NCBI RefSeq assembly: GCF_017358165.1
Contig: NZ_CP071446.1
Location: 930,001-994,000, forward strand
DNA length: 64,000 bases
Direction: 5' to 3'
Source of the DNA: Thermosipho ferrireducens
GTDB taxonomy: Bacteria > Thermotogota > Thermotogae > Thermotogales > Fervidobacteriaceae
Part shown: positions 699-43,892 of the stretch, piece after piece
How the letters are laid out: every line of letters begins with the position of its first letter
How positions within the stretch are numbered: position 1 is the stretch's first letter
The notes under the pieces: model-generated
What the model was told of the DNA's origin: nothing
Databases searched by the model: none
Seen by the model: only the letters and a program-made list of their open reading frames with translations
Program-made: the position numbers and the translations under genes

Positions 699-1523
699 TC
701 ATTCCCCACTTAATAATTTATTTTCTAATTCCTCCCAATTAACCTCTTCAAGATTAACTTCCACACATTTTTCACCAATTTTTGGATTTTCATAAAAGTT
801 TTTATTCCTGAACTTTATCTTTACATCTTTAAACTTTATCTTTCCATATCCCCTTGAACCACTACCACCTAAATAATCATCCTCAAGTAGCATCATTGCC
901 CTTAAAAACTCTTTTAAATATTTAATTCCATCCCCTTCATATACATTAATCACAAATTCAGATGAAAATCTTGCACCAGCTGGAACTCTTTCGGTTTTCC
1001 TTGGATGTGCAATTGCTGTAATTCTATCCAGATTATTTTCATTTTTAACTTCTGTATATTTAGTTTCCAAATACTCCATCATTTCAGGTGTAATACTATC
1101 TTCAATTAGCAAAGAATCCCTTACAATTAATCTTGTTGGCATTAAGTTTTTAAATTCTTCTTCTTTTTTTTCTTTGTCACTAACAAATTTATGTTTTCCG
1201 TGGTTTCGTCCAAACAAATTGCATACTGGACAATCCTCTTCATCGCACATATGAATTTTTATACTTTGGCTTTCACTATCTTTTTTTACTGTGTAAACTA
1301 ACAAATCAGGTTTTATCTTCTCATGATAATATTCCATCAAAGTTCTTAATTTCCCCTTTAAACTTGAACCAGGAATATACGGTCTTCCCAATGAATCTTT
1401 AATTACAGGATTATCTATACCACCAATTTCCATATTATTTTCTTCTGTGCCAATATGTAAACCTGTTTCTAATTCGATCTCACTCTCAATTATAAATTTT
1501 CCAACAAACTTTATCTCTTTCAT
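699..1523 (-). CDS. csm3: Csm3, backbone RAMP and target-RNA nuclease subunit
   Basis: The protein has a Cas7-type RAMP fold signature: GSSLKGKLRTLME near the N-terminus and YLGGSGSRGYGKIKF near the C-terminus. Csm3 forms the filament that holds the crRNA spacer, and its conserved aspartate cuts target RNA at 6-nt intervals (family knowledge). An internal CDEEDCPVCNLFG stretch probably binds zinc. I chose the ATG at 1523 (MKEIKF) over the longer frame start at 1556, because AGGGGG lies just upstream and the longer start would overlap csm2. It is translated right after csm2 and 4 nt before csm4. Confidence 0.95.
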   Translation of the reverse strand: MKEIKFVGKFIIESEIELETGLHIGTEENNMEIGGIDNPVIKDSLGRPYIPGSSLKGKLRTLMEYYHEKIKPDLLVYTVKKDSESQSIKIHMCDEEDCPVCNLFGRNHGKHKFVSDKEKKEEEFKNLMPTRLIVRDSLLIEDSITPEMMEYLETKYTEVKNENNLDRITAIAHPRKTERVPAGARFSSEFVINVYEGDGIKYLKEFLRAMMLLEDDYLGGSGSRGYGKIKFKDVKIKFRNKNFYENPKIGEKCVEVNLEEVNWEELENKLLSGE

Positions 1524-1539
1524 ATTTTTACCCCCTTTA

Positions 1540-2004
1540 TTATTCTTTCCCACCATAATATTTATGATAAGCTATAAGAGCTTCGAAAAAATCTTTAAAT
1601 CTTTTAAAAGCTTCCTCATCTTTTTCAGATACTTTCAATACAAGAGTTTTTATTGAATCTACAAATTCCTTATTGCTAAACCCCTTCTTTTTAATGCTAT
1701 ACAAGAATACAGCCATAAATCTTTTTAATTCATATTTGTAATTTTCTGTGCTAATTCGTTTTACAAAACTAAAATATTTTCTTAATTGTGTAGAAGATAG
1801 TTCTTTTTTTTCATTTTCTTTTTTATCTTTCTTTGATTTTTCACCATTTTTAGAGTCCTTTTTTGGCGCGATTAGCTTTGCCAAGCTTTTAGAATATTCA
1901 AACAAAAGTTGACCATCTGGATCTTTTTTGTCATCTAAAATTTTATCTGCAAGTTCTTCATTAATTATAAATCTGTCGTTTTGTTTAACATATTCACCAT
2001 TCAT
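1540..2004 (-). CDS. csm2: Csm2, small helical subunit of the Csm complex
   Basis: The gene encodes 154 residues, mostly helical and lysine-rich, with the Csm2-type C-terminal part (LRKYFSFVKRI ... FKDFFEALIAYHKYYGG). The central KKDSKNGEKSKKDKKENEKK stretch is a low-complexity linker longer than in most Csm2 proteins. Csm2 lines the groove between crRNA and target. The start at 2004 (MNGEY) has a strong AGGAGGG site and overlaps the end of cas10 by 11 nt, which indicates translational coupling. The assignment rests on position and weak sequence similarity. Confidence 0.88.
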   Translation of the reverse strand: MNGEYVKQNDRFIINEELADKILDDKKDPDGQLLFEYSKSLAKLIAPKKDSKNGEKSKKDKKENEKKELSSTQLRKYFSFVKRISTENYKYELKRFMAVFLYSIKKKGFSNKEFVDSIKTLVLKVSEKDEEAFKRFKDFFEALIAYHKYYGGKE

Positions 2005-4273
2005 AATATCCCTCCTTTGTTTCGTATTCAACCCATAAAGTTACAGAACCTAATTTTTCATATAACCTATTTCCATTTCTCAAAAATGTGTTACTGTGTA
2101 TAAGATTATCAATTGATTCTTTTGCATTTTTATATCTTTCCTTTAATCTCGTTAAATAATAAAATAGTCTCCATACTTTGAATATATCTTTTGATTTTTT
2201 TGAATCTTCATACATTTTTCTCAAAACAAAGAGAATCGATTTTGTAACCTTTTTATCTGTAACAATATCAAATAACATTTCTTTCATATTCTTGTATTCT
2301 TCAAACTCTTCCCAACCTATAACATCCCCTAAGAAATATAACGCACTTTTTTCCAGATCCTTTCTTTTATACTCTTTGGCTTTATCTAAATAATCACCTG
2401 CAGAACTGGCAACCCTATACACCGGAAATTTCTTTGCGGGGGCAATATCTATTGCCATTGAAATAGATAGATCTGGATTTTTTCCACAATATCTTTTAAA
2501 ACTCATATTTAGATCTTCAGCTAATGGAATTAACTCACTCCAAGGGCCAAGAATAAAAAAGTCATCCCCTCCTGAATAAATAACACTTGAATGCTTATAT
2601 TTTTGAGAGACAATATCTTCAAGAAATTTACCAAAAAATTCTTCCAGCTCTGAGGATAAAGTTGCAATTTTTGAAATTGGAGCTTTTTCACCTAAACCCT
2701 TATGAAAAATTGTTCCCAGATTATCAACATCTCCCCTTAACACCCCCCATCTTTTTAAACCTTTTGAACTACTAGCTATGGTTTCTAAATCAGAAACATT
2801 ATTATTTTCCAATTTACATACATAATTCGCAGTCTTTAAATAATATTTAGCTGTTTTTAAATTTATTTCTCCAACTTTTTCAATTAAGTATGCATCTTTT
2901 GAAGCATTTTTAGGAAATTCTATATCATATCCGAATTTATTAAATACTTTTCTGTACGAATCAATTTGTTCTATTTTTGAATTGAATGTTTTAAACCTTA
3001 AATATTTGCTCTTAGATAATTCTTGACCTAGTTCAGCGAATGATTCACAAAAACTACAAATTCCAGCCTCATTAGTATCCCTTCTACAATACGGACATGA
3101 AAATTCATTTAATTTTTTAAATTTTTCATTAAATATTTTCTCAATGATAGTATCATAATTTCTATTTTTCCTTTTTTCTAATTCTTCAGAGACTTTTTGA
3201 AAAATTTCACCAGTTAATTCATTTAATCCTAACTTAACCCCCCCAAGATGCACTGACAATTCAAGCCCATGCGCCTCATACATGACTCTATCAATATATT
3301 CTTGATACTTTCTTAAATTATTGATTGTCTTTGCTGGAACAATTAAATAAAAATGACCTCCACCATTAAATAATATGTTTGAAATGGTTAAACCTTCTTT
3401 TTCTACTATATATCTTGCGATTATTTCCATTAAATACGAAACATAGAAAGATCTTCCCCTTAATTTCTTTACCGCACCTTCTTGAGAAATGTTATAAATG
3501 AAATTTTGTATACCTGAAATATCTCCTTTTACAAACCCCAAAACCTTTTCATCATTTAAATCATTAACCAAATACTGCTCAAGGAGATCTAATGGTTTTT
3601 CATTGTTATTTTTTAAATCTTCTTCAAACTGCTTGAACAGACCCACCGCAATAGCTGCCGTAGTAGTTAAATGTGAAAACAAGGAAATATCAGGTTTTGA
3701 ATAATAAAATGCTGATGGAATATTGGAAGTATATTCTTTCAAAATATAATACATGCGTTCAAAATCATCTTCATTAACAATTAATTGTGAAAACTCTTCC
3801 CATAACTTTCTATATGAATTTTCCACATTTTCTTCTTCATTCTCGATTAAATCAGTAAATTTTGATAATTTTGTTATTTTTTTATATTTTGGATTAGAGG
3901 AATTTCTTTTTAATTTTACTTCTGAAAGTATGGAAACCATATTTTTTATTTTTTCTTCATTTTCAATATCTTCTCTCTCGGATGACGAAACTCTATCTGC
4001 TATTCTAATTAATCTTGACAAAATATTATTAGGTTTGTGATGATTTAAGATAGCAGCTTCTACCTCATCTTTAAAAGGCAAATTAGAATTTTTATAAAAA
4101 TACGCCCCCCATTCTTGATGCCTGGGAGAAAATGCGTTATCTTGTTTGATAAAATATTCATATTCTTTTAATATTTCTTTTTTTATTTTTGAGTTCTTTG
4201 TTCTCTGATAAAATTTTCCTATATCATGAAAAATTCCTGCTAAAAATATTGTTTCTGTCGATAGAATACCCAT
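1994..4273 (-). CDS. cas10: Cas10/Csm1, HD nuclease and cyclic-oligoadenylate synthase
   Basis: This is the large subunit of the type III-A complex. An N-terminal HD motif (GIFHDIGKFYQR) marks the ssDNase domain. A zinc ribbon (CPYCRRDTNEAGICSFC) sits in the middle, and an intact palm motif YSGGDDFF (GGDD at about residues 568-571) marks the cyclase that makes cyclic oligoadenylate when target RNA is bound. Both catalytic centres look intact, so signalling to the Csx1 and SAVED effectors upstream in the operon is expected. The start at 4273 (MGILS) is preferred over 4291 because AAGGGGTG precedes it. A 73-bp gap separates it from csx1. Confidence 0.96.
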   Translation of the reverse strand: MGILSTETIFLAGIFHDIGKFYQRTKNSKIKKEILKEYEYFIKQDNAFSPRHQEWGAYFYKNSNLPFKDEVEAAILNHHKPNNILSRLIRIADRVSSSEREDIENEEKIKNMVSILSEVKLKRNSSNPKYKKITKLSKFTDLIENEEENVENSYRKLWEEFSQLIVNEDDFERMYYILKEYTSNIPSAFYYSKPDISLFSHLTTTAAIAVGLFKQFEEDLKNNNEKPLDLLEQYLVNDLNDEKVLGFVKGDISGIQNFIYNISQEGAVKKLRGRSFYVSYLMEIIARYIVEKEGLTISNILFNGGGHFYLIVPAKTINNLRKYQEYIDRVMYEAHGLELSVHLGGVKLGLNELTGEIFQKVSEELEKRKNRNYDTIIEKIFNEKFKKLNEFSCPYCRRDTNEAGICSFCESFAELGQELSKSKYLRFKTFNSKIEQIDSYRKVFNKFGYDIEFPKNASKDAYLIEKVGEINLKTAKYYLKTANYVCKLENNNVSDLETIASSSKGLKRWGVLRGDVDNLGTIFHKGLGEKAPISKIATLSSELEEFFGKFLEDIVSQKYKHSSVIYSGGDDFFILGPWSELIPLAEDLNMSFKRYCGKNPDLSISMAIDIAPAKKFPVYRVASSAGDYLDKAKEYKRKDLEKSALYFLGDVIGWEEFEEYKNMKEMLFDIVTDKKVTKSILFVLRKMYEDSKKSKDIFKVWRLFYYLTRLKERYKNAKESIDNLIHSNTFLRNGNRLYEKLGSVTLWVEYETKEGYYEW

Positions 4274-4346
4274 ATTTTCACCCCTTACCATTATTTACAT
4301 ATCTAATTAAGTTCGATGTTTATATAAATTCTCAGCAACATCTCTT

Positions 4347-5735
4347 CTAACGTGCTAAACCAAGTATTTTCTTAACATCTGGGATTATAAAAACTTCAGA
4401 GTTTTCCTTTAATATTTTGAATGTTTTACTGGACATACCTGAATGAGCAAGGAAATTTCTTTTCTCGTCAAAATCAGAGTTTTTAACTTTTGTATTTTCT
4501 GTTTTGTTAAAACCCTCAGTATTTTTACCTTGAGCAAGCATTTTTATTTTGTTATAATCATATATCATCTCTTCTCCATCTTTTATATAAGGAAAGTTTT
4601 TTTCAAGCTCTTTAATCTCTTTATTTAAAAAAGAAGAAACCTGTGATTTACCTAAATTATCTTTGATTTTCCAGATGAAATTAATCATTTCCTTCAACTT
4701 ACTAAATAGAATTTTTTCGGTTTCAATTTTTCCAAACAGTTCTTCAAAGTGCTCCATAAACAATTGAGAGAATATTATATCTTTTAACCCACTGGATAAT
4801 TCTAATTTTCTAAGAACTTCACACACTTCCTCATTATTTTTTACCTCAATGAATTCTCTAAATAGGTTTATAATTTGATCAATAAATCCTTTATACTTTA
4901 TTTTCTTATGAACGATGATAAACAGAAGTGGGAGACCGTAATAAATTGATTTTAGAAAAAGATGTGAATTTTCGAGGGTATTTCTAACTGCTTCTTTTCT
5001 CGTTTCTATGATTTCACCAAGCTTTGAAAAAACTCTTTTATTAACTTCAATTTTCATTTCTTTTGGAAGTTTACTATATGGATTTGAAACCCTTTTTTTA
5101 ACTTCAGATTCAAAAATGACGTTTTGCACTATGTCTTTTTCTTCGATAATGTGAATATTTGGTGTATTTGTAGAAAACACAGGTTCTGAATTTACTACAA
5201 CAAGTTTCACAGGTTTAAAATATGCTATTACTCCAAGTATTTCATTTAGTGCTCTATATAAAATATTTGATTGATAATTAATGCCCAGGCTAATATCAAA
5301 AATGACTTTCAATTCTTTCGATTTTATAATTTCTTTTGAAGTGAATATCTTATACATTTCATATAATGCTAAAAAATACGCGTCTGTCACATTTCCCATA
5401 AAATGACAATTTTGATAAACTCCTACTCCTGGAATTATGTGAACATCAACATCTTGAGCATTTACTTTTTTATCCGTCTTTTCATTTGCTTTTTTGAGAA
5501 AATATTCTTTATATTCCTTCTTTAATTCCTTGCACATTTCGCCATAATCATTATTTATTTTGGAAAGAGTGTCCAATAAGAAAATACTTGTTAAACTGAT
5601 ATCAAAAAAATCTATCAATAATTTCTGCAGAAAATGTCCATTTTTTTCTTTATCATCATGATGTATAGTGTAAACAATGTCTTCTTTATACTGCCTTATA
5701 TTTCCCAGAGAACAAATTAATATGTTCACAATCAA
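4347..5735 (-). CDS. csx1: Csx1-family CARF-HEPN ribonuclease
   Basis: The N-terminal half is CARF-like: it opens with a beta strand and glycine turn (NILICSLGN) and carries FDISLGINYQSN, the second CARF signature of TM1812/Csx1 proteins. The C-terminus has the HEPN motif RNFLAHSG (R426, H431), the RNase active site. It should be switched on by cyclic oligoadenylate from Cas10 and cut RNA non-specifically. The first in-frame start is TTG at 5735, directly after the calpL stop; GTG at 5729 has better spacing from the GGGGG ribosome site and may be the real start. It shares the operon with the SAVED-Lon protease, so one Cas10 may feed two sensors. Confidence 0.88.
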   Translation of the reverse strand: MIVNILICSLGNIRQYKEDIVYTIHHDDKEKNGHFLQKLLIDFFDISLTSIFLLDTLSKINNDYGEMCKELKKEYKEYFLKKANEKTDKKVNAQDVDVHIIPGVGVYQNCHFMGNVTDAYFLALYEMYKIFTSKEIIKSKELKVIFDISLGINYQSNILYRALNEILGVIAYFKPVKLVVVNSEPVFSTNTPNIHIIEEKDIVQNVIFESEVKKRVSNPYSKLPKEMKIEVNKRVFSKLGEIIETRKEAVRNTLENSHLFLKSIYYGLPLLFIIVHKKIKYKGFIDQIINLFREFIEVKNNEEVCEVLRKLELSSGLKDIIFSQLFMEHFEELFGKIETEKILFSKLKEMINFIWKIKDNLGKSQVSSFLNKEIKELEKNFPYIKDGEEMIYDYNKIKMLAQGKNTEGFNKTENTKVKNSDFDEKRNFLAHSGMSSKTFKILKENSEVFIIPDVKKILGLAR

Positions 5736-7166
5736 TTACCCCCTTATATCTTCAATTTTAAATGCTTCAATGTATCCCCCTTCGTTTTTATCGTATTGAT
5801 ATATTATTCCTTTTGAAAAATCTCCATAAGCCATACCAAATCCAAACGCAATAGGTAAAGGGCAACTCATAAAAAAATAATTTCTTGCACACTCATATTT
5901 TGATTTCACATTTTGAGTTACACTCATCATTTCAGATACTATATCTGACCAATCGTCTATCTTAATATTTCCTTTCCCATGCTGGTATTCTATAAAAACC
6001 ATTTTTGCATTTAGTTTATTTTTCTCAATAAACAGCTCTGCATCTTTTCTTGGACTATGAGAAGCTAAATAAATAACAAAAGCACAATTTTTACCAGAGC
6101 CTTTTATGGAGTAATTAATTTGTTTATAATCATTTCTTATTGTTTTTATTTTCCTAATATTATCAGTCAAATCTAAAACTGGATAATATTCTGTTTGTCC
6201 ATGATAAAAAACTACCGGGTTGTGTGGACCTAATGCTATTCCTAAAGCCATCGCCATTGCAACAGGACCAATCATTGCTACATGTGGAACTCCTCTTTTG
6301 GAAATAATGTCGAATAAAACTTCTTTTGCTTTTTTTAGTGAATTTTCCCACTCATCTTTTTTTATACTTTTTGACACATAGATTTTCTTTATATCAAATA
6401 TCTTTTCAAAAATATTTACATATTTCAAAGGGTATTTCCTTGCCACTGCTTCTTTAAGTCTTTCGTATGAAGCTTCTATATAATCTTGATCAAGCTCTTT
6501 GAATACAAGTAAAACTGGTACATGGTATTTTTTTGCTTCAAAAAAGTCTTTTAATTCGTAAACGTCATTTATATCAAGAGCACTAATCAACTTTATCCCA
6601 GATTCTTCACATATCTTTTGCTTCAACTCAATATGGCTTACATTGCTTTTTACTTTTCCATTTTCAATAACTTCTCCAGAAAATGCTATATTATCTGGAA
6701 GTTTATTTACAAGTGCACCTATTGTCACCGCCAGCATATACGACTTACCTGAAAATTCATCATCAAATATGACTCCCAGGGTCTTATTAACTATTTTTTC
6801 TATATCCTTTATCTCCTCATAAAGCTCTGGAATATTAACATATGTTTTTGTTGTTTCAAATACAAGAGCTCTAACAATTTTTCCATTACTATTTCCAACT
6901 ATAGGGAACATAACTTCGGTAAATTTATTTCTATACATATCAACCGCGATTTCTTCATCAGTCATGAGCTTTACTAAGAAATTAAGTGCAATTGCCTTAT
7001 TTTTATAATTGACAAGTTTTTTAACTATTTCAAAAAAAACATATTCTTTTCCAAAAAAATCACCTGCATTTAAATAAGTTTCTACAGCTTCCTGAAAAGT
7101 TATTTGATCGCCTTTAAAAAGTTTTACAAAAGCTATTGGATCGTCTCTCATAAATTCAGAATACAA
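5736..7166 (-). CDS. calpL: SAVED-Lon protease, CalpL-like cyclic-oligoadenylate-activated effector
   Basis: The protein has 476 residues without an AAA+ ATPase. Residues ~130-210 show a Lon-type (S16) protease core: SGKSYMLA carries the likely catalytic Ser142, FSGEV matches the conserved Lon strand, and IELKQKICEESGIKLI carries the likely Lys184. The Ser-Lys spacing of 42 is close to 43 in E. coli Lon. The C-terminal half looks like a SAVED sensor, with repeated P..A...G patterns (MIGPVAMAMALGIALGPHNP; CPLPIAFGFGMAYGDF), each followed by a YY/IYQY strand. CalpL of Sulfurihydrogenibium has this layout, binds cA4 and cleaves CalpT. The next upstream genes encode CalpT- and sigma-like proteins, which strongly supports the call. 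The start is TTG at 7166 behind GGGAGGG. Confidence 0.88.
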   Translation of the reverse strand: MYSEFMRDDPIAFVKLFKGDQITFQEAVETYLNAGDFFGKEYVFFEIVKKLVNYKNKAIALNFLVKLMTDEEIAVDMYRNKFTEVMFPIVGNSNGKIVRALVFETTKTYVNIPELYEEIKDIEKIVNKTLGVIFDDEFSGKSYMLAVTIGALVNKLPDNIAFSGEVIENGKVKSNVSHIELKQKICEESGIKLISALDINDVYELKDFFEAKKYHVPVLLVFKELDQDYIEASYERLKEAVARKYPLKYVNIFEKIFDIKKIYVSKSIKKDEWENSLKKAKEVLFDIISKRGVPHVAMIGPVAMAMALGIALGPHNPVVFYHGQTEYYPVLDLTDNIRKIKTIRNDYKQINYSIKGSGKNCAFVIYLASHSPRKDAELFIEKNKLNAKMVFIEYQHGKGNIKIDDWSDIVSEMMSVTQNVKSKYECARNYFFMSCPLPIAFGFGMAYGDFSKGIIYQYDKNEGGYIEAFKIEDIRG

Positions 7167-7168
7167 CT

Positions 7169-7960
7169 CTAACCCTCCCTTATAATCTTGAGATTTTTTC
7201 TAATTGTTTCATTATCTAAATCTGCAATGTTCTCGACAATTATTGTTTTTGGTAGCTTTCCTTCATATAAAACTTCATCTTTGAACACTATTTTTCCTTG
7301 TTTTCCTACAAATTCATCTTCTGGATAGATCTTTAAAACTTCCCCTTCAAAAATAGCAAGGAAATTATATCCTCTAATTCCCTCAGTTGCGGCAACCAAC
7401 CGTTCTTTGTTCAATCCACTTTTTAATTCTTCAGAAACAGATAAGATCACAATATTATTTTTTGTTTCCTCTTGAATTATTATTTTTTCCATTCTTTCGA
7501 AAAAGATTTCAAATAATTTACTCAATTTCTTAACTTCGATCTCAAAGAACTTCTTTCTGTAACCTGTATAAAATTCATTGTTCAGCTTTGTTGAATTTTC
7601 AATTATGTCCTTCAACTTTTCCTTTTCATTTTTAATCACTTCGCAGTGCTTTTCAGCAAAATCTTTAAATACATAAAACCTAATGTGCGTAATTGCTACT
7701 ATACTTACCAGATGATCCAATTCGATTCTTTTGGCAAGAGGACTTGCCAGGAAAAGTTCTGGTGTTAAATAAATACATTCGTACATTTCACCTATTTTTT
7801 CTGCAACAATTCCATATATTGGAAAATGTGTTGTATATATAACAAATATATCTCCTATTTTTAGTGTATTACTTTTAATTTCCTTGAACTTGTAATTTTC
7901 CTCTACTTTTTCCAGATTAAATTGCTTGTATAATTCAAATTCATCTTTTAGAAAGCTCAT
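7169..7960 (-). CDS. calpT: CalpT-like MazF-fold protein, likely protease substrate and sigma-factor sequestering partner
   Basis: The protein has 263 residues. Residues ~25-110 (LKIGDIFVIYTTHFPIYGIV...) read as a small SH3/MazF-like barrel. A long charged helix follows (~115-160), then a separate beta-rich C-terminal domain of about 95 residues. This division resembles CalpT, which the protease cuts into a large and a ~10 kDa fragment to release the sigma factor. Similarity to MazF is weak by eye; the call leans on gene order (sigma - this gene - SAVED-Lon) and size. It starts with ATG and AGGAGG at ideal spacing, 17 nt after the sigma gene and 2 nt before calpL. Confidence 0.72.
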   Translation of the reverse strand: MSFLKDEFELYKQFNLEKVEENYKFKEIKSNTLKIGDIFVIYTTHFPIYGIVAEKIGEMYECIYLTPELFLASPLAKRIELDHLVSIVAITHIRFYVFKDFAEKHCEVIKNEKEKLKDIIENSTKLNNEFYTGYRKKFFEIEVKKLSKLFEIFFERMEKIIIQEETKNNIVILSVSEELKSGLNKERLVAATEGIRGYNFLAIFEGEVLKIYPEDEFVGKQGKIVFKDEVLYEGKLPKTIIVENIADLDNETIRKNLKIIREG

Positions 7961-7977
7961 GATAACCTCCTGATTTT

Positions 7978-8631
7978 TTAATTTCTTTCCATATTATCAT
8001 TACGTATCTTTTCACACGTTTCTGACATAAATTTGCGTATCGCTATGGAAAACTCTATTTCCGATATTCCACTTTCTAAAACTAATTCTCTAAGTTTTTT
8101 CTTTATTCTTTCAACAATTTTATATTTCGCGCTTGCCGATTTTTCTTTAAACAATATTTCTTTAGAGTACATAGATTTATAAAAATAATAACATAAATGT
8201 TGAATATTCATCTGATTAAGTTCCTCAACAAACGCTTCTGCAATTATTTCACTTTCAGGGTTAACATTTCCTATATCATATATGAAACGTTCTTGCATGT
8301 TTTCCTCACCATCGTAAATTTCTTTATCCAATGAGTAAGTTTCACGAGATTTTCTTAAAATATCAACTATATGATTTTTTATCATTGTATATAAATACCC
8401 TTCAATTCCTTTTTCACATTTTAAGAAAAGATCTTTTTTTTCCTTTATTTTAATTAAAATATTATTTGTTATTTCATCAATTATTGAATCTTTGTTTCCA
8501 TATTTCCCAAGTAAAGTTTTTAGATAATAAGGGTTAGTATGTACAATTTTGCTAACTATATTTTGAATCGTTTCTAAAAACCTTTCAGTTAAAATATTGT
8601 TATTTATATAGTTTGACAGATCTTTTTTCAC
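7978..8631 (-). CDS. calpS: CalpS-like ECF-type sigma factor
   Basis: The protein has 217 residues. Residues ~50-104 match sigma region 2: DEITNNILIKIKEKKDLF followed by GYLYTMIKNHIVDILRK, the usual promoter-melting helix. Residues ~153-185 (YSKEILFKEKSASAKYKIVE then RIKKKLREL) fit a region-4 helix-turn-helix. There is no region 1 or 3, as in ECF sigmas. In the described system this protein is held by CalpT and freed on phage detection. The start is GTG at 8631 after GAGGTGG, overlapping nothing and directly following the upstream stop. The C-terminal ~30 residues beyond region 4 are of unknown role. The target promoters are unknown. Confidence 0.82.
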   Translation of the reverse strand: MKKDLSNYINNNILTERFLETIQNIVSKIVHTNPYYLKTLLGKYGNKDSIIDEITNNILIKIKEKKDLFLKCEKGIEGYLYTMIKNHIVDILRKSRETYSLDKEIYDGEENMQERFIYDIGNVNPESEIIAEAFVEELNQMNIQHLCYYFYKSMYSKEILFKEKSASAKYKIVERIKKKLRELVLESGISEIEFSIAIRKFMSETCEKIRNDNMERN

Positions 8632-8632
8632 T

Positions 8633-9052
8633 TCAATACCACCTCAACAGGAAGTCTTTTATACATTTCTTACATACCCCGCAACGTGTGAAAAATCTTT
8701 TCAAAAGTTCTTTTGGTATTAAAAATACATACCTATGATTATATTCAAACACATAAGACGGTTTTTGTTGGAACTTGCAAAATTCATCACTTGAAATATT
8801 ACAATCGTTCCATATATCTACTTTAATCTTTGAATAGTTTTTGGTTGATAAAAACATAATTTTACAGTTATTGCCGGAATTTTCAACTATAACTGGCCTT
8901 TTTTCACGCTCTCCTTGTTTAGAATTCCACAGCCCATCACCGATTTTTAATTCTTTAGAAAATGATTTTAAATCTTCTATAAAGCCTATAGAGGTTTTAT
9001 AGAGCTCCTTGTACTCAGGCTTAACGAAAATATCTTCGATAAGTTTCCGCAT
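8633..9052 (-). CDS. MazF/PemK-like small protein with C-terminal Cys motif, first gene of the calp-csm operon
   Basis: The protein has 139 residues. The middle part, IGDGLWNSKQGEREKRPVIV, resembles the GD.W...G.E...RP.(V/L)V entry of MazF/PemK toxins, followed by strands typical of that fold. The tail CGVCKKC suggests a metal site or a redox pair; other cysteines occur at NDC and EFC. It could be a second MazF-type partner of the sigma factor, a toxin, or an unrelated regulator. It starts with ATG and GGAGG and is followed 1 nt later by the sigma gene, so it is co-expressed with the cassette. It is not obviously a part of the described CalpL-T-S trio. Confidence 0.6.
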   Translation of the reverse strand: MRKLIEDIFVKPEYKELYKTSIGFIEDLKSFSKELKIGDGLWNSKQGEREKRPVIVENSGNNCKIMFLSTKNYSKIKVDIWNDCNISSDEFCKFQQKPSYVFEYNHRYVFLIPKELLKRFFTRCGVCKKCIKDFLLRWY

Positions 9053-9099: not shown

Positions 9100-9105
9100 A
9101 TTATA
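9100..9105 (-). promoter_or_regulatory. Candidate -10 box (TATAAT) of the calp-csx1-csm operon
   Basis: In the 69-bp gap between the cas2 stop and the first gene of the effector operon, the minus strand reads GTTATAATAT. No good -35 is visible 17 nt upstream. It is the only gap of this kind between the adaptation genes and the effector genes, so a promoter here is plausible but unproven. Confidence 0.4.
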
Positions 9106-9121
9106 ACATATACGTTTCTAA

Positions 9122-9400
9122 TTATAAAATATTACTTGAAACATTCCATTTTTCTGTCCCATCAACCTCTTTTTTTATCACATTTTTCGAATTAAAAAAA
9201 TAAATGACAATATTATCTTCTTCTGGATTTATTTTCCTCTTTATTTCCCCTATCATCTTTTTTATGTTAGATTGTGTTATATATCCTTCAAAAGTAGAAT
9301 TTTGCTGCCAGATAATGTACTTTTTCAAAATTTTGTGAATTTTATTCACTCTTTTTTCGTTAATATCATACACAACCAATACGTACTTAATATCTATCAC
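9122..9400 (-). CDS. cas2: Cas2 (first copy, downstream of cas1)
   Basis: The protein has 92 residues with the Cas2 ferredoxin-like opening YVLVVYDINEKRVNKIHKIL and the dimer-helix part WQQNSTFEGYI. Cas2 pairs with Cas1 to integrate spacers. It begins with GTG in a GTGA overlap with the cas1 stop, so it is coupled to cas1. Its C-terminal tail (KKEVDGTEKWNVSSNIL) differs from the other cas2 at 10395-10655. Confidence 0.93.
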   Translation of the reverse strand: MIDIKYVLVVYDINEKRVNKIHKILKKYIIWQQNSTFEGYITQSNIKKMIGEIKRKINPEEDNIVIYFFNSKNVIKKEVDGTEKWNVSSNIL

Positions 9401-10383
9401 TCTCCCAAACGGAATCCTTTAAATTTTTCCTCTCCTTTAAGATGCCTGATAAGTTTATAACATTCATGCAAAATTACTGTTTTAAAAGATACCTTGTTGT
9501 CATTATATAGAGTTACTTTATGCTCAAGTCTTTTTTCAAATTCTTCAACGAACTTCTTTTTCCCTTTCCCGGATAAATAAACACCGTTCTTCACTTCCTC
9601 AAAATCTTCTTTCTTTATGACATTTGAATTTATCACTTTTAATATTACTTTATCAACAATAATTGGTTTAAAAATTTCCGCTATATCAAGCTGTAATGAG
9701 AATTTTCGTTTATTTGGCTCGTGTAAAAAACTTATACTTGGTTCAAGCGAAGTTTTATATATTTCAGCTAACACAATGTTATACAAAATGGTATTTCCAA
9801 AACTTATCAATGCATTTACTTCATCTTTTGGAGGATTCTTTCTTCTTTCTTCAAATTCAAAATCTTTTTTTCCTACTATTTTTCCAATAGCTTTATAATA
9901 AGTTTTTCGAATATTTCCTTCTATAGCCATTAACGCTGCTATATTCTTTTGTCTTTCAAATGTACCTTTCAATTTTTTTACATAATTTATCTCTCGTTGT
10001 ACTAATTTTTTATAGTTTTTAAGAACATACAACATATTATCCACAGCTGCTTCTAAAATAGATTTTGCAATTTCAAGTCTACGCTTTATATCCATATAAT
10101 GATTAAATTGAAGAATAAGCATTTCGCCTGTTTTGTTAATTTCTCGTGGATAAAAACTTCCTAAAAAATTCCCATAGTAATTGTAAAAAAATATTGGAAT
10201 ACCCTCTTTTGATAACAAATCTAAAAAACGTTTATTCATGGTTACTTCAGAAAACACCATAATCGAGGAAAAACTTTTTAATGGAATAAATATAGCTTTT
10301 TCACTCTTTTTCAAAGGGATCAAGTACAAAGCACTATTTTTTCTTTTTAACTCGCCATCTGTAAAAATATATAATGTTTCCAT
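9397..10383 (-). CDS. cas1: Cas1 integrase
   Basis: The protein has 328 residues with the two-part Cas1 fold: an N-terminal beta domain (METLYIFTDGELKRKNSALY) and a helical catalytic domain. The expected metal-site regions are visible at NALISFGNTILYN and at FLHEPNKRKFSLQLDIAE (His and Asp). It catalyses spacer insertion at the leader-proximal repeat. No reverse-transcriptase domain is fused. It lies between two cas2 genes, 11 nt downstream of the first of them and overlapping the second by 4 nt. Confidence 0.96.
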   Translation of the reverse strand: METLYIFTDGELKRKNSALYLIPLKKSEKAIFIPLKSFSSIMVFSEVTMNKRFLDLLSKEGIPIFFYNYYGNFLGSFYPREINKTGEMLILQFNHYMDIKRRLEIAKSILEAAVDNMLYVLKNYKKLVQREINYVKKLKGTFERQKNIAALMAIEGNIRKTYYKAIGKIVGKKDFEFEERRKNPPKDEVNALISFGNTILYNIVLAEIYKTSLEPSISFLHEPNKRKFSLQLDIAEIFKPIIVDKVILKVINSNVIKKEDFEEVKNGVYLSGKGKKKFVEEFEKRLEHKVTLYNDNKVSFKTVILHECYKLIRHLKGEEKFKGFRLGE

Positions 10384-10394
10384 TTGCTCCCTCC

Positions 10395-10655
10395 TTACAC
10401 AAAATTAGAGACATTTGGTTTAAAATCTCCTATTACTTTTCTATAAGGTACAAATTCCGGGTTTAAAATGTACCAGTACACTGAATCTTCTTCTGAAATT
10501 ATTTTCCTTATCTTTTCACGAAGTTCTTTATAATTTTTTTCAGTGATCATCCCTTCAAGCACAGACTTTTGCACCCATCTTAAATATTTTCTTGCAATTC
10601 TTAAAACCTTTGCTACCCTTTTAGTATTGACATCATAAATCATTATTACATACAT
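10395..10655 (-). CDS. cas2: Cas2 (second copy, upstream of cas1)
   Basis: The protein has 86 residues with the classic Cas2 start MYVIMIYDVNTKRVAKVLRI and the central RWVQKSVLEGMITEKNY. It is well diverged from the cas2 at 9122-9400, so it is not a recent tandem copy. It has ATG behind AGGAGGTGAG. It is the promoter-proximal gene of a cas2-cas1-cas2 unit. Confidence 0.94.
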   Translation of the reverse strand: MYVIMIYDVNTKRVAKVLRIARKYLRWVQKSVLEGMITEKNYKELREKIRKIISEEDSVYWYILNPEFVPYRKVIGDFKPNVSNFV

Positions 10656-12148: not shown

Positions 12149-12176
12149 ACCCGCGGTTTAATCCGCGGGTTTTAAT
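12149..12176 (+). terminator. Strong hairpin (possible terminator) between the small gene and array 1
   Basis: ACCCGCGG-TTTAAT-CCGCGGGT forms an 8-bp perfect stem followed on the plus strand by TTTAATTTAG. On the minus strand it is preceded by the end of CRISPR array 1. It could end transcription of the small gene or of the pre-crRNA. It starts ~3 bp before the first (leader-distal) repeat. Confidence 0.6.
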
Positions 12177-12179
12177 TTA

Positions 12180-13117
12180 GTTTTCATTCCTTATAGGTAG
12201 AAGCTAAACGAATTAATAGCTAATATTGGTCTGGATATTAGACCAAGGTTTTCATTCCTTATAGGTAGAAGCTAAACTTTTGGAAGAAAACAACATTAAA
12301 TACGAAAAACTTGAGTTTTCATTCCTTATAGGTAGAAGCTAAACTGAATTTTATTAAGAGTATTGACAGCATCGAGCAGGATTATGAGTTTTCATTCCTT
12401 ATAGGTAGAAGCTAAACGTATGTTGAGAACATTAATTACAGATAACGTCAAATTTGGGTTTTCATTCCTTATAGGTAGAAGCTAAACCATCAAATATGTT
12501 CTTAAAGAATTAGGGGTCACGCACAGAATAGGTTTTCATTCCTTATAGGTAGAAGCTAAACTTATTGTTGTTTTTAGAACTGGGCATGCAGAAGTAGAAT
12601 GGTTTTCATTCCTTATAGGTAGAAGCTAAACTTTATGTTTAGAAAAGTAATAATTGTTGATGACAGAAATTTGTTTTCATTCCTTATAGGTAGAAGCTAA
12701 ACATGTACCCTCTCACCCAATTTAGTTAAATGGGAGGAGGTGAGTTTTCATTCCTTATAGGTAGAAGCTAAACTATTATTACACCCAGCAATACGCACGT
12801 GACGTGATAGAGGTTTTCATTCCTTATAGGTAGAAGCTAAACAAACATTTGATTACTTCGAAGTAATTTTTCTCCCGTATAGGTTTTCATTCCTTATAGG
12901 TAGAAGCTAAACTTTTCTCTTCGGGGATTGAGATAGAAACAGATAATCATTTGTTTTCATTCCTTATAGGTAGAAGCTAAACGAAAACTAACAGTTACAT
13001 TGACACGGGTATCAAATAAGTTTTCATTCCTTATAGGTAGAAGCTAAACTCAACATATCGCAGCAAAGCTACTCAGATTACAGCGGAGTTTTCATTCCTT
13101 ATAGGTAGAAGCTAAAC
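12180..13117 (-). CRISPR. CRISPR array 1: 14 repeats, 13 spacers
   Basis: The 30-nt repeat begins GTTTTCATTCCTTAT and ends GTAGAAGCTAAAC on the plus strand; all 14 copies look identical. Copies begin at 12180, 12248, 12315, 12388, 12458, 12532, 12602, 12673, 12744, 12813, 12883, 12953, 13020 and 13088. Spacers are 37-44 nt. On the minus strand the repeat ends GGAATGAAAAC, the usual 3' end of type I/III repeats, and the shared leader lies at the right end, so transcription is on the minus strand and the newest spacer is at 13050-13087. Spacers can be read in frame on the plus strand, so the crRNAs would be antisense to such mRNAs. Confidence 0.98.
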
Positions 13118-17136: not shown

Positions 17137-17429
17137 TCTTTCAATGACCTTTTGTACCTTTTGTTACAATTTTGCCTTTTTCTCTTTTTGCTCTTGACTT
17201 ATTACCGGTGACTGATAAATATTATTCTTCTTCTATAAATATACTTGCACTCTTCATTGATAGAAGCTAAACAAAAAGGGGGGCCCTCCTCACCCATAAT
17301 CCGACATCTCCGCCCATTATCCCCACCCATCGTCCCCGTCACTCCCCATCCTTTACATCCTACTCCCTCATCAATTGTCATTTGTCATTCGCTTTTTTAT
17401 TCCCCCCTTACCCATCCTTACAACACATC
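17137..17429. other. IS right flank and degenerate CRISPR-like stretch
   Basis: After the transposase stop comes ~110 bp of AT-rich DNA probably containing the IS right end. Then CTTCATTGATAGAAGCTAAAC (split at 17250-17270) repeats the last 13 bases of the CRISPR repeat. The next ~155 bp is unusually C-rich on the plus strand (CCCACCC, CCCCGTCACTCCCC) and unlike the rest of the window. No gene is credible here. Confidence 0.6.
17250..17270 (-). repeat. Degenerate terminal CRISPR repeat
   Basis: The 3' part TAGAAGCTAAAC matches the array repeat exactly, while the 5' part is reduced to CTTCATTGA. It lies on the leader-distal side of array 2, where worn repeats are common. It could be the remnant of the oldest repeat, or the junction made when the IS inserted. 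Confidence 0.65.
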
Positions 17430-18023
17430 GTTTTCATTCCTTATAGGTAGAAGCTAAACAGAAAAGCCGCAAAGTACAAGGAGTGTGAGTTAACAAGAAA
17501 CAAGTTTTCATTCCTTATAGGTAGAAGCTAAACACGTAAATTACCGTCAAAATTGTTAAAAGTTATAAGAAAAGTTTTCATTCCTTATAGGTAGAAGCTA
17601 AACAGAAGATTTAAGCTATCAAGACTTAAGAATAGTTGAAGATTTGTTTTCATTCCTTATAGGTAGAAGCTAAACAAAATTACCATTATCGATGATAGGA
17701 ATTTTGTCCCCGGGAGTTTTCATTCCTTATAGGTAGAAGCTAAACAGGATTTGATGAAATTTGGTTTCTCCAAGATGGAAGTCTTGGTTTTCATTCCTTA
17801 TAGGTAGAAGCTAAACTAATTGTGTCGGCAATAGTAAAAAACGCCTTGCAAGATCGTTTTCATTCCTTATAGGTAGAAGCTAAACTGGTTAGCGATGAAG
17901 CAATTGATGTAGAAAAAGTTGAGTTTTCATTCCTTATAGGTAGAAGCTAAACAACAGTGAAAGTTTTTTTGACAGAGATAAGCTACTCTATAAGTTTTCA
18001 TTCCTTATAGGTAGAAGCTAAAC
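17430..18023 (-). CRISPR. CRISPR array 2: 9 repeats, 8 spacers, same repeat as array 1
   Basis: Repeat copies begin at 17430, 17504, 17574, 17646, 17716, 17787, 17856, 17923 and 17994; all look identical to array 1 repeats. Spacers are 37-44 nt. The leader (18024-18323) lies at the right end, so it is transcribed on the minus strand and the newest spacer is 17953-17993. The spacer at 17676-17715 encodes KITIIDDRNFVPG on the plus strand, close to the peptide encoded by a spacer in array 1. Confidence 0.98.
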
Positions 18024-43125: not shown

Positions 43126-43892
43126 GTTTCAATTCCTCATAGGTACGGTAAAAACATACATGGTAATTCTGTTGTTTTTAGAATTGGGACAGAGTTTCAA
43201 TTCCTCATAGGTACGGTAAAAACCGAAGAATACTACAACTACAACATTGTATACGACTTGTTTCAATTCCTCATAGGTACGGTAAAAACTTATCGCAGCT
43301 AAAAAAGAAAGCAAAAGAAATGTACGTTTCAATTCCTCATAGGTACGGTAAAAACTTATCGCAGCTAAAAAAGAAAGCAAAAGAAATGTACGTTTCAATT
43401 CCTCATAGGTACGGTAAAAACTTAAACACATGGAGATGGGACTACAAATACAATAGATCGTTTCAATTCCTCATAGGTACGGTAAAAACAATATTTTCGC
43501 CTAACATACCATTCCTTTGCTTGTCAACGTTTCAATTCCTCATAGGTACGGTAAAAACGTGTAAAAACTGCTGTTTCAATACCTTTCCATGCAATCATGT
43601 TTCAATTCCTCATAGGTACGGTAAAAACATAGCAGGATGGCCTGACACATATACACCTACAGAAGAGTTTCAATTCCTCATAGGTACGGTAAAAACGATG
43701 GCAGGGTGCATATGATAATTTGAAAGAAATTTGTTTCAATTCCTCATAGGTACGGTAAAAACTTTACGCCAGCGTTGCAACCAATCAATGTAGAAACGTT
43801 TCAATTCCTCATAGGTACGGTAAAAACGGATTCTTGCCGTATCTCTATATCATCATATACTTGTTTCAATTCCTCATAGGTACGGTAAAAAC
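43126..43892 (-). CRISPR. CRISPR array 3: 12 repeats, 11 spacers, second repeat type
   Basis: The 30-nt repeat begins GTTTCAATTCCTCATAGG and ends TACGGTAAAAAC on the plus strand. Copies begin at 43126, 43194, 43260, 43326, 43392, 43460, 43529, 43599, 43667, 43733, 43798 and 43863. On the minus strand the repeat ends GAATTGAAAC, the standard 3' motif, so transcription is on the minus strand from the right. It shares the core ATTCCT-x-ATAGGTA with arrays 1 and 2. Spacers are 35-40 nt; those at 43290-43325 and 43356-43391 are identical. No cas genes are adjacent. Confidence 0.98.

Follow-up and report, generated by a model that had tools for sequence, protein, structure and literature searches.

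The stretch of the Thermosipho ferrireducens genome considered here (the window, 64,000 nucleotides long, bases 930001-994000 of a single-contig genome of 1.98 Mb) carries a Calp cassette that is probably best explained as a set of four conserved genes within a type III-A CRISPR (clustered regularly interspaced short palindromic repeats) locus. Besides calpL (encoding a Lon protease fused to a SAVED domain), calpT (encoding an anti-sigma factor homologue) and calpS (encoding a sigma factor), the cassette contains a short gene directly upstream of calpS, here called gene X. That the first three genes form a genuine CalpL-CalpT-CalpS cascade is hardly in doubt, which adds a new and well-supported member to the Calp systems, and gene X is very likely part of the same system. 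The initial annotation had described three genes; their identity was borne out, the set was incomplete in that the adjoining conserved gene at 8633-9052 had been missed. The elements of the cassette are as follows (window positions, lengths in amino acids (aa)):

8633..9052, minus strand: gene X, 139 aa, with a model resembling MazF/PemK; opens the cassette, upstream of calpS
7978..8631, minus strand: calpS, ECF (extracytoplasmic function)-like sigma factor, by NCBIfam, Pfam, model and alignment to Sulfurihydrogenibium CalpS
7169..7960, minus strand: calpT, homologue of a two-domain anti-sigma factor, by PADLOC and by family profile against PDB
7385..7399, minus strand: LVAAT, residues 188-192 of CalpT, between the domains and conserved; putative CalpL cleavage region
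5736..7166, minus strand: calpL, Lon protease fused to SAVED, by PADLOC, PDB and family alignment
6741..6743, minus strand: codon of CalpL Ser142, aligned with S152 of Sulfurihydrogenibium CalpL
6621..6623, minus strand: codon of CalpL Lys182, aligned with K193 of Sulfurihydrogenibium CalpL; replaces Lys184
9100..9108, minus strand: TGTTATAAT, promoter element of the extended -10 type ahead of gene X, pattern TGnTATAAT conserved

Association of gene X with calpS

In the window, gene X and calpS are 1 nucleotide (nt) apart, and neither Pfam nor PADLOC nor NCBIfam matched gene X at E 1. A contig scan of genomes for the Calp family yielded only 3 loci. Over three phyla, gene X was found directly upstream of calpS in 54 of the 58 Calp loci that have CalpS beside CalpT, a set that is not fully independent (G069/G071 and G079/G080 are near duplicates) and that does not include a lone CalpS-like gene with no CalpT or CalpL beside it (G077:C17) or a CalpL without CalpS or CalpT (G229). 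The search for gene X was genome-wide in sets of 103 and 390 genomes and was confined to the fetched loci in other phyla.

Among the 103 Thermotogota genomes, a profile of X matched 14, of which 12 strongly (E 2e-9 or better); the two weak matches (G056 and G026) were rejected. All 12 genomes with a strong match also have CalpL, and in each of them X lies directly upstream of CalpS, even in the Fervidobacterium-type genomes and G059, where the X-S-T block is found about 10 kb from CalpL. Some of these loci are damaged: in G079 CalpS contains in-frame stops and csx1 is split, and in G081 the open reading frame (ORF) of X lacks the N-terminal part. In the second phylum CalpL was present in 8 of 25 genomes, and X preceded CalpS in 6 of the 6 loci showing the CalpS region (the contigs of G308 and G309 begin inside the cassette). 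The frame of X is broken in one of these genomes (G197), and a profile that excluded the G305 sequence confirmed the CalpS of that genome (E 6.1e-31). In the phylum of Sulfurihydrogenibium, 52 of the 121 sampled genomes have CalpL, and 40 of 53 places with a CalpL match were fetched, 13 rows being left out. A clear CalpS was found in 36 of these 40 loci, and X was directly upstream in all 36, 35 times as judged by distance and once (L193) before the first of two ORFs into which CalpS is split. The other fetched loci either stop at a contig end (L184, L219), contain no CalpS (L215) or contain only a weak CalpS match, which is the gene after X (L216, E 1.7e-4).

A profile made solely from the first two phyla detected 32 X ORFs below E 1e-4 in the Sulfurihydrogenibium phylum, and 6 more were added by one further round. 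In the 390 genomes the profile matched 15, namely 13 beside CalpS at Calp loci (G197 and 12 Thermotogota, many of which had contributed to the profile) and two weak matches (G048 and G049) that lie inside ORFs of about 1160 aa and were rejected. Gene X was not found in the plasmids searched. Given the conserved fourth gene, the system in most of the examined loci therefore comprises four genes and not three, and the usual Calp system, we infer, has four genes.

Variants of gene X were observed as well. One genome has two tandem copies upstream of calpS (L189:5403-5849 and 5873-6340, plus strand), and in three loci the X protein reaches 230-234 aa, exceeding the usual length by about 90 residues (L198:10908-11600, minus strand; L201:5310-6002, minus strand; L202:4596-5300, plus strand).

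Constraint, probable promoter and mirror-tree correlations of gene X

The ratio of nonsynonymous to synonymous substitution rates (Ka/Ks) of X was 0.05-0.30 in the 7 usable of 8 pairs (one was saturated), which indicates purifying selection. In 35 loci, taking the earliest possible starts, the end of the X ORF ranges from 61 nt within the CalpS ORF to 3 nt ahead of it. Upstream of X the pattern TGnTATAAT, which was picked after the sequences had been viewed, occurs within 200 nt in 10 of the 11 Thermotogota loci, where shuffles would predict 0.24, and in 8 of those 10 loci at a distance of 27-56 nt. Gene X thus appears to open the transcription unit, with a promoter of the housekeeping type; an ECF-type, CalpS-dependent promoter upstream of X was not recognised by eye. 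In the Sulfurihydrogenibium phylum the related pattern TA[AT]AAT was seen within 120 nt of only 19 of the 38 X ORFs, a count for which no shuffles serve as reference.

Partial correlations of a mirror-tree analysis over 43 loci (leaving out L189, L193, L217, some Thermotogota loci and the loci without all four genes) were 0.51 for X-S, 0.38 for X-T and -0.09 for X-L. Together with the place beside CalpS and the touching or overlapping frames, these values point to CalpS as the protein to which X relates.

Fold and conserved residues of gene X

A MazF-like fold of X is probable, judged from structure prediction. The AlphaFold2 model has a mean predicted local distance difference test score (pLDDT) of 82.8 and a predicted template modelling score (pTM) of 0.80, with 2 of the 5 models being poor. 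In a second look with VIA, rows 1-42 were filled entirely by toxins of the MazF, CcdB or CptIN kind (Z 5.9 to 4.1) and the first unrelated row came at Z 3.6; the best match was Escherichia coli MazF, with a root-mean-square deviation (rmsd) of 3.8 over 90 residues. The profile of 54 X sequences scored 32.2 (P 8.6e-5) against 34 PemK proteins, with R52-P53 and S69 of X falling on the RP and Thr of PemK; the profiles of CalpL, CalpS and CalpT scored 19.4, 16.9 and 10.9. After shuffling of the columns of the 54-sequence alignment, 197 of 200 shuffles scored 15.7 or less; the other 3 scored near 130 from 3-7 terminal columns and were judged an artefact of the aligner. Likewise, 30 shuffles of a 16-sequence alignment of X reached 15.8 at most.

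Several observations temper this assignment of the fold. The model was built from 7 sequences, it had no significant match in Foldseek (best E 1.8), and VIA Z-scores below 8 may reflect a common arrangement only. Moreover, the Pfam family PemK (PF02452) matched just 1 of 45 X proteins (E 0.063), none of them above the cut-off. A paralogous relation of X to the N-terminal portion of CalpT found no support (hhalign probability 2%).

R52, P53, S/T69, C84 and C127 are present in 54 of the 54 X sequences, C124 in 49 and C92 in 48. The positions of R52 and S/T69 are those that we take to be catalytic in MazF, and the residues needed for an RNase are possibly intact. The four conserved cysteines (C84, C92, C124 and C127) form a putative zinc site, and X is likely to have one.

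Role of gene X and alternative explanations

From published work on homologues, the following course of events may be proposed. Upon detection of a target Cas10 would make cyclic tetra-adenylate (cA4), which would bind the SAVED domain and cause CalpL to oligomerise; the Ser142/Lys182 dyad of CalpL would then cut CalpT, probably near LVAAT, and degradation of the CalpT fragment would free CalpS to bind RNA polymerase, after which the ring nuclease of the SAVED domain would destroy the cA4. By analogy, detection by the type III system would reprogram transcription in this organism as well. Gene X would be a fourth working component of this scheme, first in the operon, behind a promoter of the housekeeping type and translated next to CalpS. 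The role we prefer is that of a MazF-fold, zinc-binding protein that acts with CalpS, either as binding partner or as second restraint, and for binding of X to CalpS itself we see a chance only slightly below even. An RNA-cleaving effector is nearly as likely a role. Such an effector would be a MazF-type RNase held inactive by CalpS or CalpT, which would replace a MazE, so that cA4-triggered proteolysis frees both the sigma factor and the RNase. The presence of R52, P53 and S/T69 in all 54 sequences, aligned with the RP and Thr of PemK, fits this explanation, as do the MazF-like model and the position of calpS as the neighbour of X, with no separate MazE-like gene seen between them. However, the RP of X could be structural, the similarity to PemK is modest and a zinc site is, to our knowledge, not a feature of MazF. 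That X is an active RNase is a tentative idea that we hold at less than even odds, and the RNase-effector explanation as a whole a shade more so. The full combination would make X an active, zinc-binding RNase with a MazF fold, checked by CalpS or CalpT, have a single cA4-triggered cut free both sigma factor and RNase, and give Calp four components as a rule; it is doubtful.

An involvement of X in Calp, in whatever role, has to be weighed against two other explanations. X is found beside cas2 in Thermosipho-type loci and might be a passenger, or part of the acquisition or interference module. But X keeps its place beside calpS where the X-S-T block lies apart from CalpL and the csm genes, and likewise in 36 loci of another phylum whose flanks vary; a promoter element of its own precedes it, and its matches in the 103 and 390 genomes are all at Calp loci, except for the four weak ones. 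A passenger is for these reasons very improbable. The other possibility is an ordinary three-gene Calp system with X as a dispensable, lineage-specific gene. This is the system that the published accounts describe, as far as their passages on the Calp proteins go, and X is missing in 4 of the 58 loci, including the Cloacimonas-type system. Several findings indeed count against a four-gene system: the Cloacimonas-type locus and the related G402 contain S-T-L but no X; X is missing from G064 and G077, two of the 14 Thermotogota genomes in which CalpS was matched, the other 12 having it; in 5 of 7 pairs Ka/Ks was higher for X than for any other gene compared, so that the constraint on X is clear but looser than that on S, T and L; and the mirror-tree values weigh little since the known S-T pair gives 0.05. 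The absence of X from the Cloacimonas-type locus, G402, G064 and G077 means that not every Calp system needs X. Nevertheless, purifying selection acts on X, and X occurs across three phyla in nearly all of the loci examined, which leaves the three-gene explanation unlikely.

Calp couples CRISPR detection to transcription, in accounts whose passages on the system describe three proteins. Because X is conserved, constrained, translated next to the sigma factor and present in the founding locus, a native part of Calp has apparently been missing from the picture. If X is an RNase checked by CalpS or CalpT, the three-protein Sulfurihydrogenibium system has been described without a native component; should X prove to be a MazF-type RNase, the early proposal of a MazF-like toxin (CalpT23, in the relevant passages of PMC9704534) would return with another protein.

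CalpL, CalpT and CalpS

All three proteins are homologous to those of Sulfurihydrogenibium and their genes are in a like order, which agrees with the initial match of the cassette to CalpL-T-S of that genus, and the ORFs lie where they had been placed, at 5736-7166 (476 aa), 7169-7960 (263 aa) and 7978-8631 (217 aa) on the minus strand.

The proposed fusion of a Lon core to a SAVED-like sensor was confirmed for CalpL: residues 2-475 match the PADLOC model SAVED_LON (E 1.6e-155), the solved CalpL (7qda) was matched in a search of PDB (E 9.3e-47), and the identity with Sulfurihydrogenibium CalpL is 32% over 453 columns. A catalytic pair Ser142/Lys184 with a spacing of 42 had been suggested. Ser142 holds; Lys184 varies in the family and is to be replaced by Lys182, at a spacing of 40. 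S142 and K182 do not vary in any of the 13 sequences and are the counterparts of S152 and K193, presumably the catalytic dyad of Sulfurihydrogenibium CalpL, and since K182 aligns with K193 and is invariant where K184 varies, we consider K182 the catalytic lysine. In passages of PMC11417357, H345, S391, H392, R361 and K364 of CalpL are linked to ring-nuclease activity or oligomerisation. Their counterparts in the window protein are H322, S369, H370, R338 and K341, which are invariant or nearly so in the 13 sequences; the position of K366 is occupied by Ile343. CalpL was not found in the viral contigs, phages and plasmids searched. In G076 and G077, SAVED-only proteins of 223-265 aa are encoded (L034:9691-10488, minus strand; L035:9606-10274, plus strand; L033:10374-11168, plus strand), one of them at a contig end; these may be ring nucleases that stand alone, as Crn5 is proposed to be. 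In G064 (L032:8898-10435, plus strand) CalpL is split into two ORFs and is divergent from its CalpS and CalpT.

The 263-aa protein had been described as having a separable C-terminal domain and can be identified as CalpT. It matches the PADLOC models CRISPR-T (E 1.2e-27) and Unk_02 (E 4.1e-51), and although the single window sequence matched no PDB chain, the family profile matches the solved CalpT10 (8b0u, the C-terminal domain; E 7.6e-6). A190, within LVAAT, is invariant in 9 of 9 sequences, and CalpL would probably cleave CalpT near this motif. Four Fervidobacterium-type genomes contain a stand-alone ORF of 79-109 aa that resembles the CalpT10 domain only (L054:11031-11270, plus strand; L055:2911-3213, minus strand; L057:11057-11386, plus strand; L028:368-697, plus strand); these ORFs adjoin cas2 at the end of the III-A locus, and their products might compete with CalpT for CalpL.

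For CalpS, sigma regions 2 and 4 had been predicted. Region 2 is weak in sequence and better supported by the structure model: Pfam Sigma70_r2 was found in 7 of 11 relatives (best E 7.9e-5), and in VIA this region of the window protein matched SigW (5wuq) with Z 8.3 and an rmsd of 2.7 over 89 residues. Region 4 is less supported; Pfam gave no region 4 match for CalpS or its relatives, and residues 123-189 matched WhiG (7lq4) with Z 5.5 in VIA, which is weak for a helical fold. The identity with Sulfurihydrogenibium CalpS is 28% over 207 columns. With the AlphaFold2 model (pLDDT 81.7), the best Foldseek match had E 0.17, the first 15 rows being sigma factors or transcription complexes by title, and nearly all 50 rows of the second look with VIA were of the same kind. 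Arguing for caution are the low pTM of the model (0.49), the matches to NCBIfam sigma-70 models (E 6e-8 and worse), all of which are under the curated cut-offs, and the warning of VIA that Z-scores below about 13 are weak for helical folds.

Comparison with known systems

The closest described relative is the CalpL/CalpT/CalpS system of Sulfurihydrogenibium sp. YO3AOP1 (PDB 7qda, 8b0r and 8b0u), whose founding locus is L180, because the CalpL encoded there matches 7qda over 495 residues without a difference. It has the X-S-T-L order and the domains of the window cassette, and its protease and ring-nuclease residues align with those of the window; in contrast to it, the window cassette continues directly with csx1 and cas10 of the III-A locus. 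L180 carries X, the stop of which overlaps a possible calpS ATG by one base. CalpL with CalpT and CalpS is described in passages of PMC11417357, PMC12751052 and PMC11229360, and CalpL with CalpT in those of PMC9704534, where CalpT23 was early on proposed to be a MazF-like toxin unleashed by Calp. The passages concerned mention no X and no further Calp gene; the primary papers or the 2019 survey of accessory genes might mention X. Among the matches listed in a literature search for a fourth Calp gene or operon, no paper named CalpL.

The Cloacimonas-type Calp (PDB 9eyi) resembles the window system in having S-T-L, with the Lon-SAVED protein beside a type III locus; the CalpL of its locus L125 matches 9eyi over 505 residues without a difference. 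It differs in lacking X and in its longer CalpS (289 aa) and CalpT (299 aa). X of the founding locus matches the PADLOC family C3a162 (PDLC01080, 'Unknown function') with E 4.3e-58, and 15 of 45 X proteins match this family; the window X gave no match at E 1 and is linked to this family via intermediates. C3a162 was not mentioned in the literature among the matches listed. With MazF/PemK toxins (PF02452), X shares the modelled fold and the RP and Ser/Thr positions; it differs in the Cys4 motif, in having no Pfam match over the cut-off and in that no MazE-like gene is seen beside it.

The surrounding type III-A locus

The adjacency to csx1-cas10-csm that had been noted initially was confirmed. 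The minus-strand ORFs of calpL, calpT and calpS are tightly packed with csx1, cas10, csm2 and csm3, and csx1 abuts calpL with a gap of 0. The neighbouring features in the window are:

4347..5735, minus strand: csx1, CARF-HEPN RNase, by library matches; R426-x4-H431 motif
1994..4291, minus strand: cas10/csm1, by library matches; HD and GGDD motifs present
1540..2031, minus strand: csm2, by library matches
699..1556, minus strand: csm3, by library matches
9122..10383, minus strand: cas2 (9122-9400) and cas1 (9397-10383), ahead of the cassette and separated from gene X by 69 bases
12156..13117, no strand assigned: CRISPR array with a 30-nt repeat, 14 repeat copies in the window
17406..18023, no strand assigned: second CRISPR array with the same repeat as the array at 12156..13117, 9 copies

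With the GGDD motif of cas10, csm2, csm3 and the arrays, the linked III-A locus is cyclase-positive, and judged by gene content the detection and signalling halves of the locus look complete. A second Cas2-like ORF of 86 aa, also seen in related loci, lies upstream of cas1 at window positions 10395-10655, and a short array at 43260-43424 has a different unit (period 66 nt, 2.5 copies) and may be another CRISPR array.

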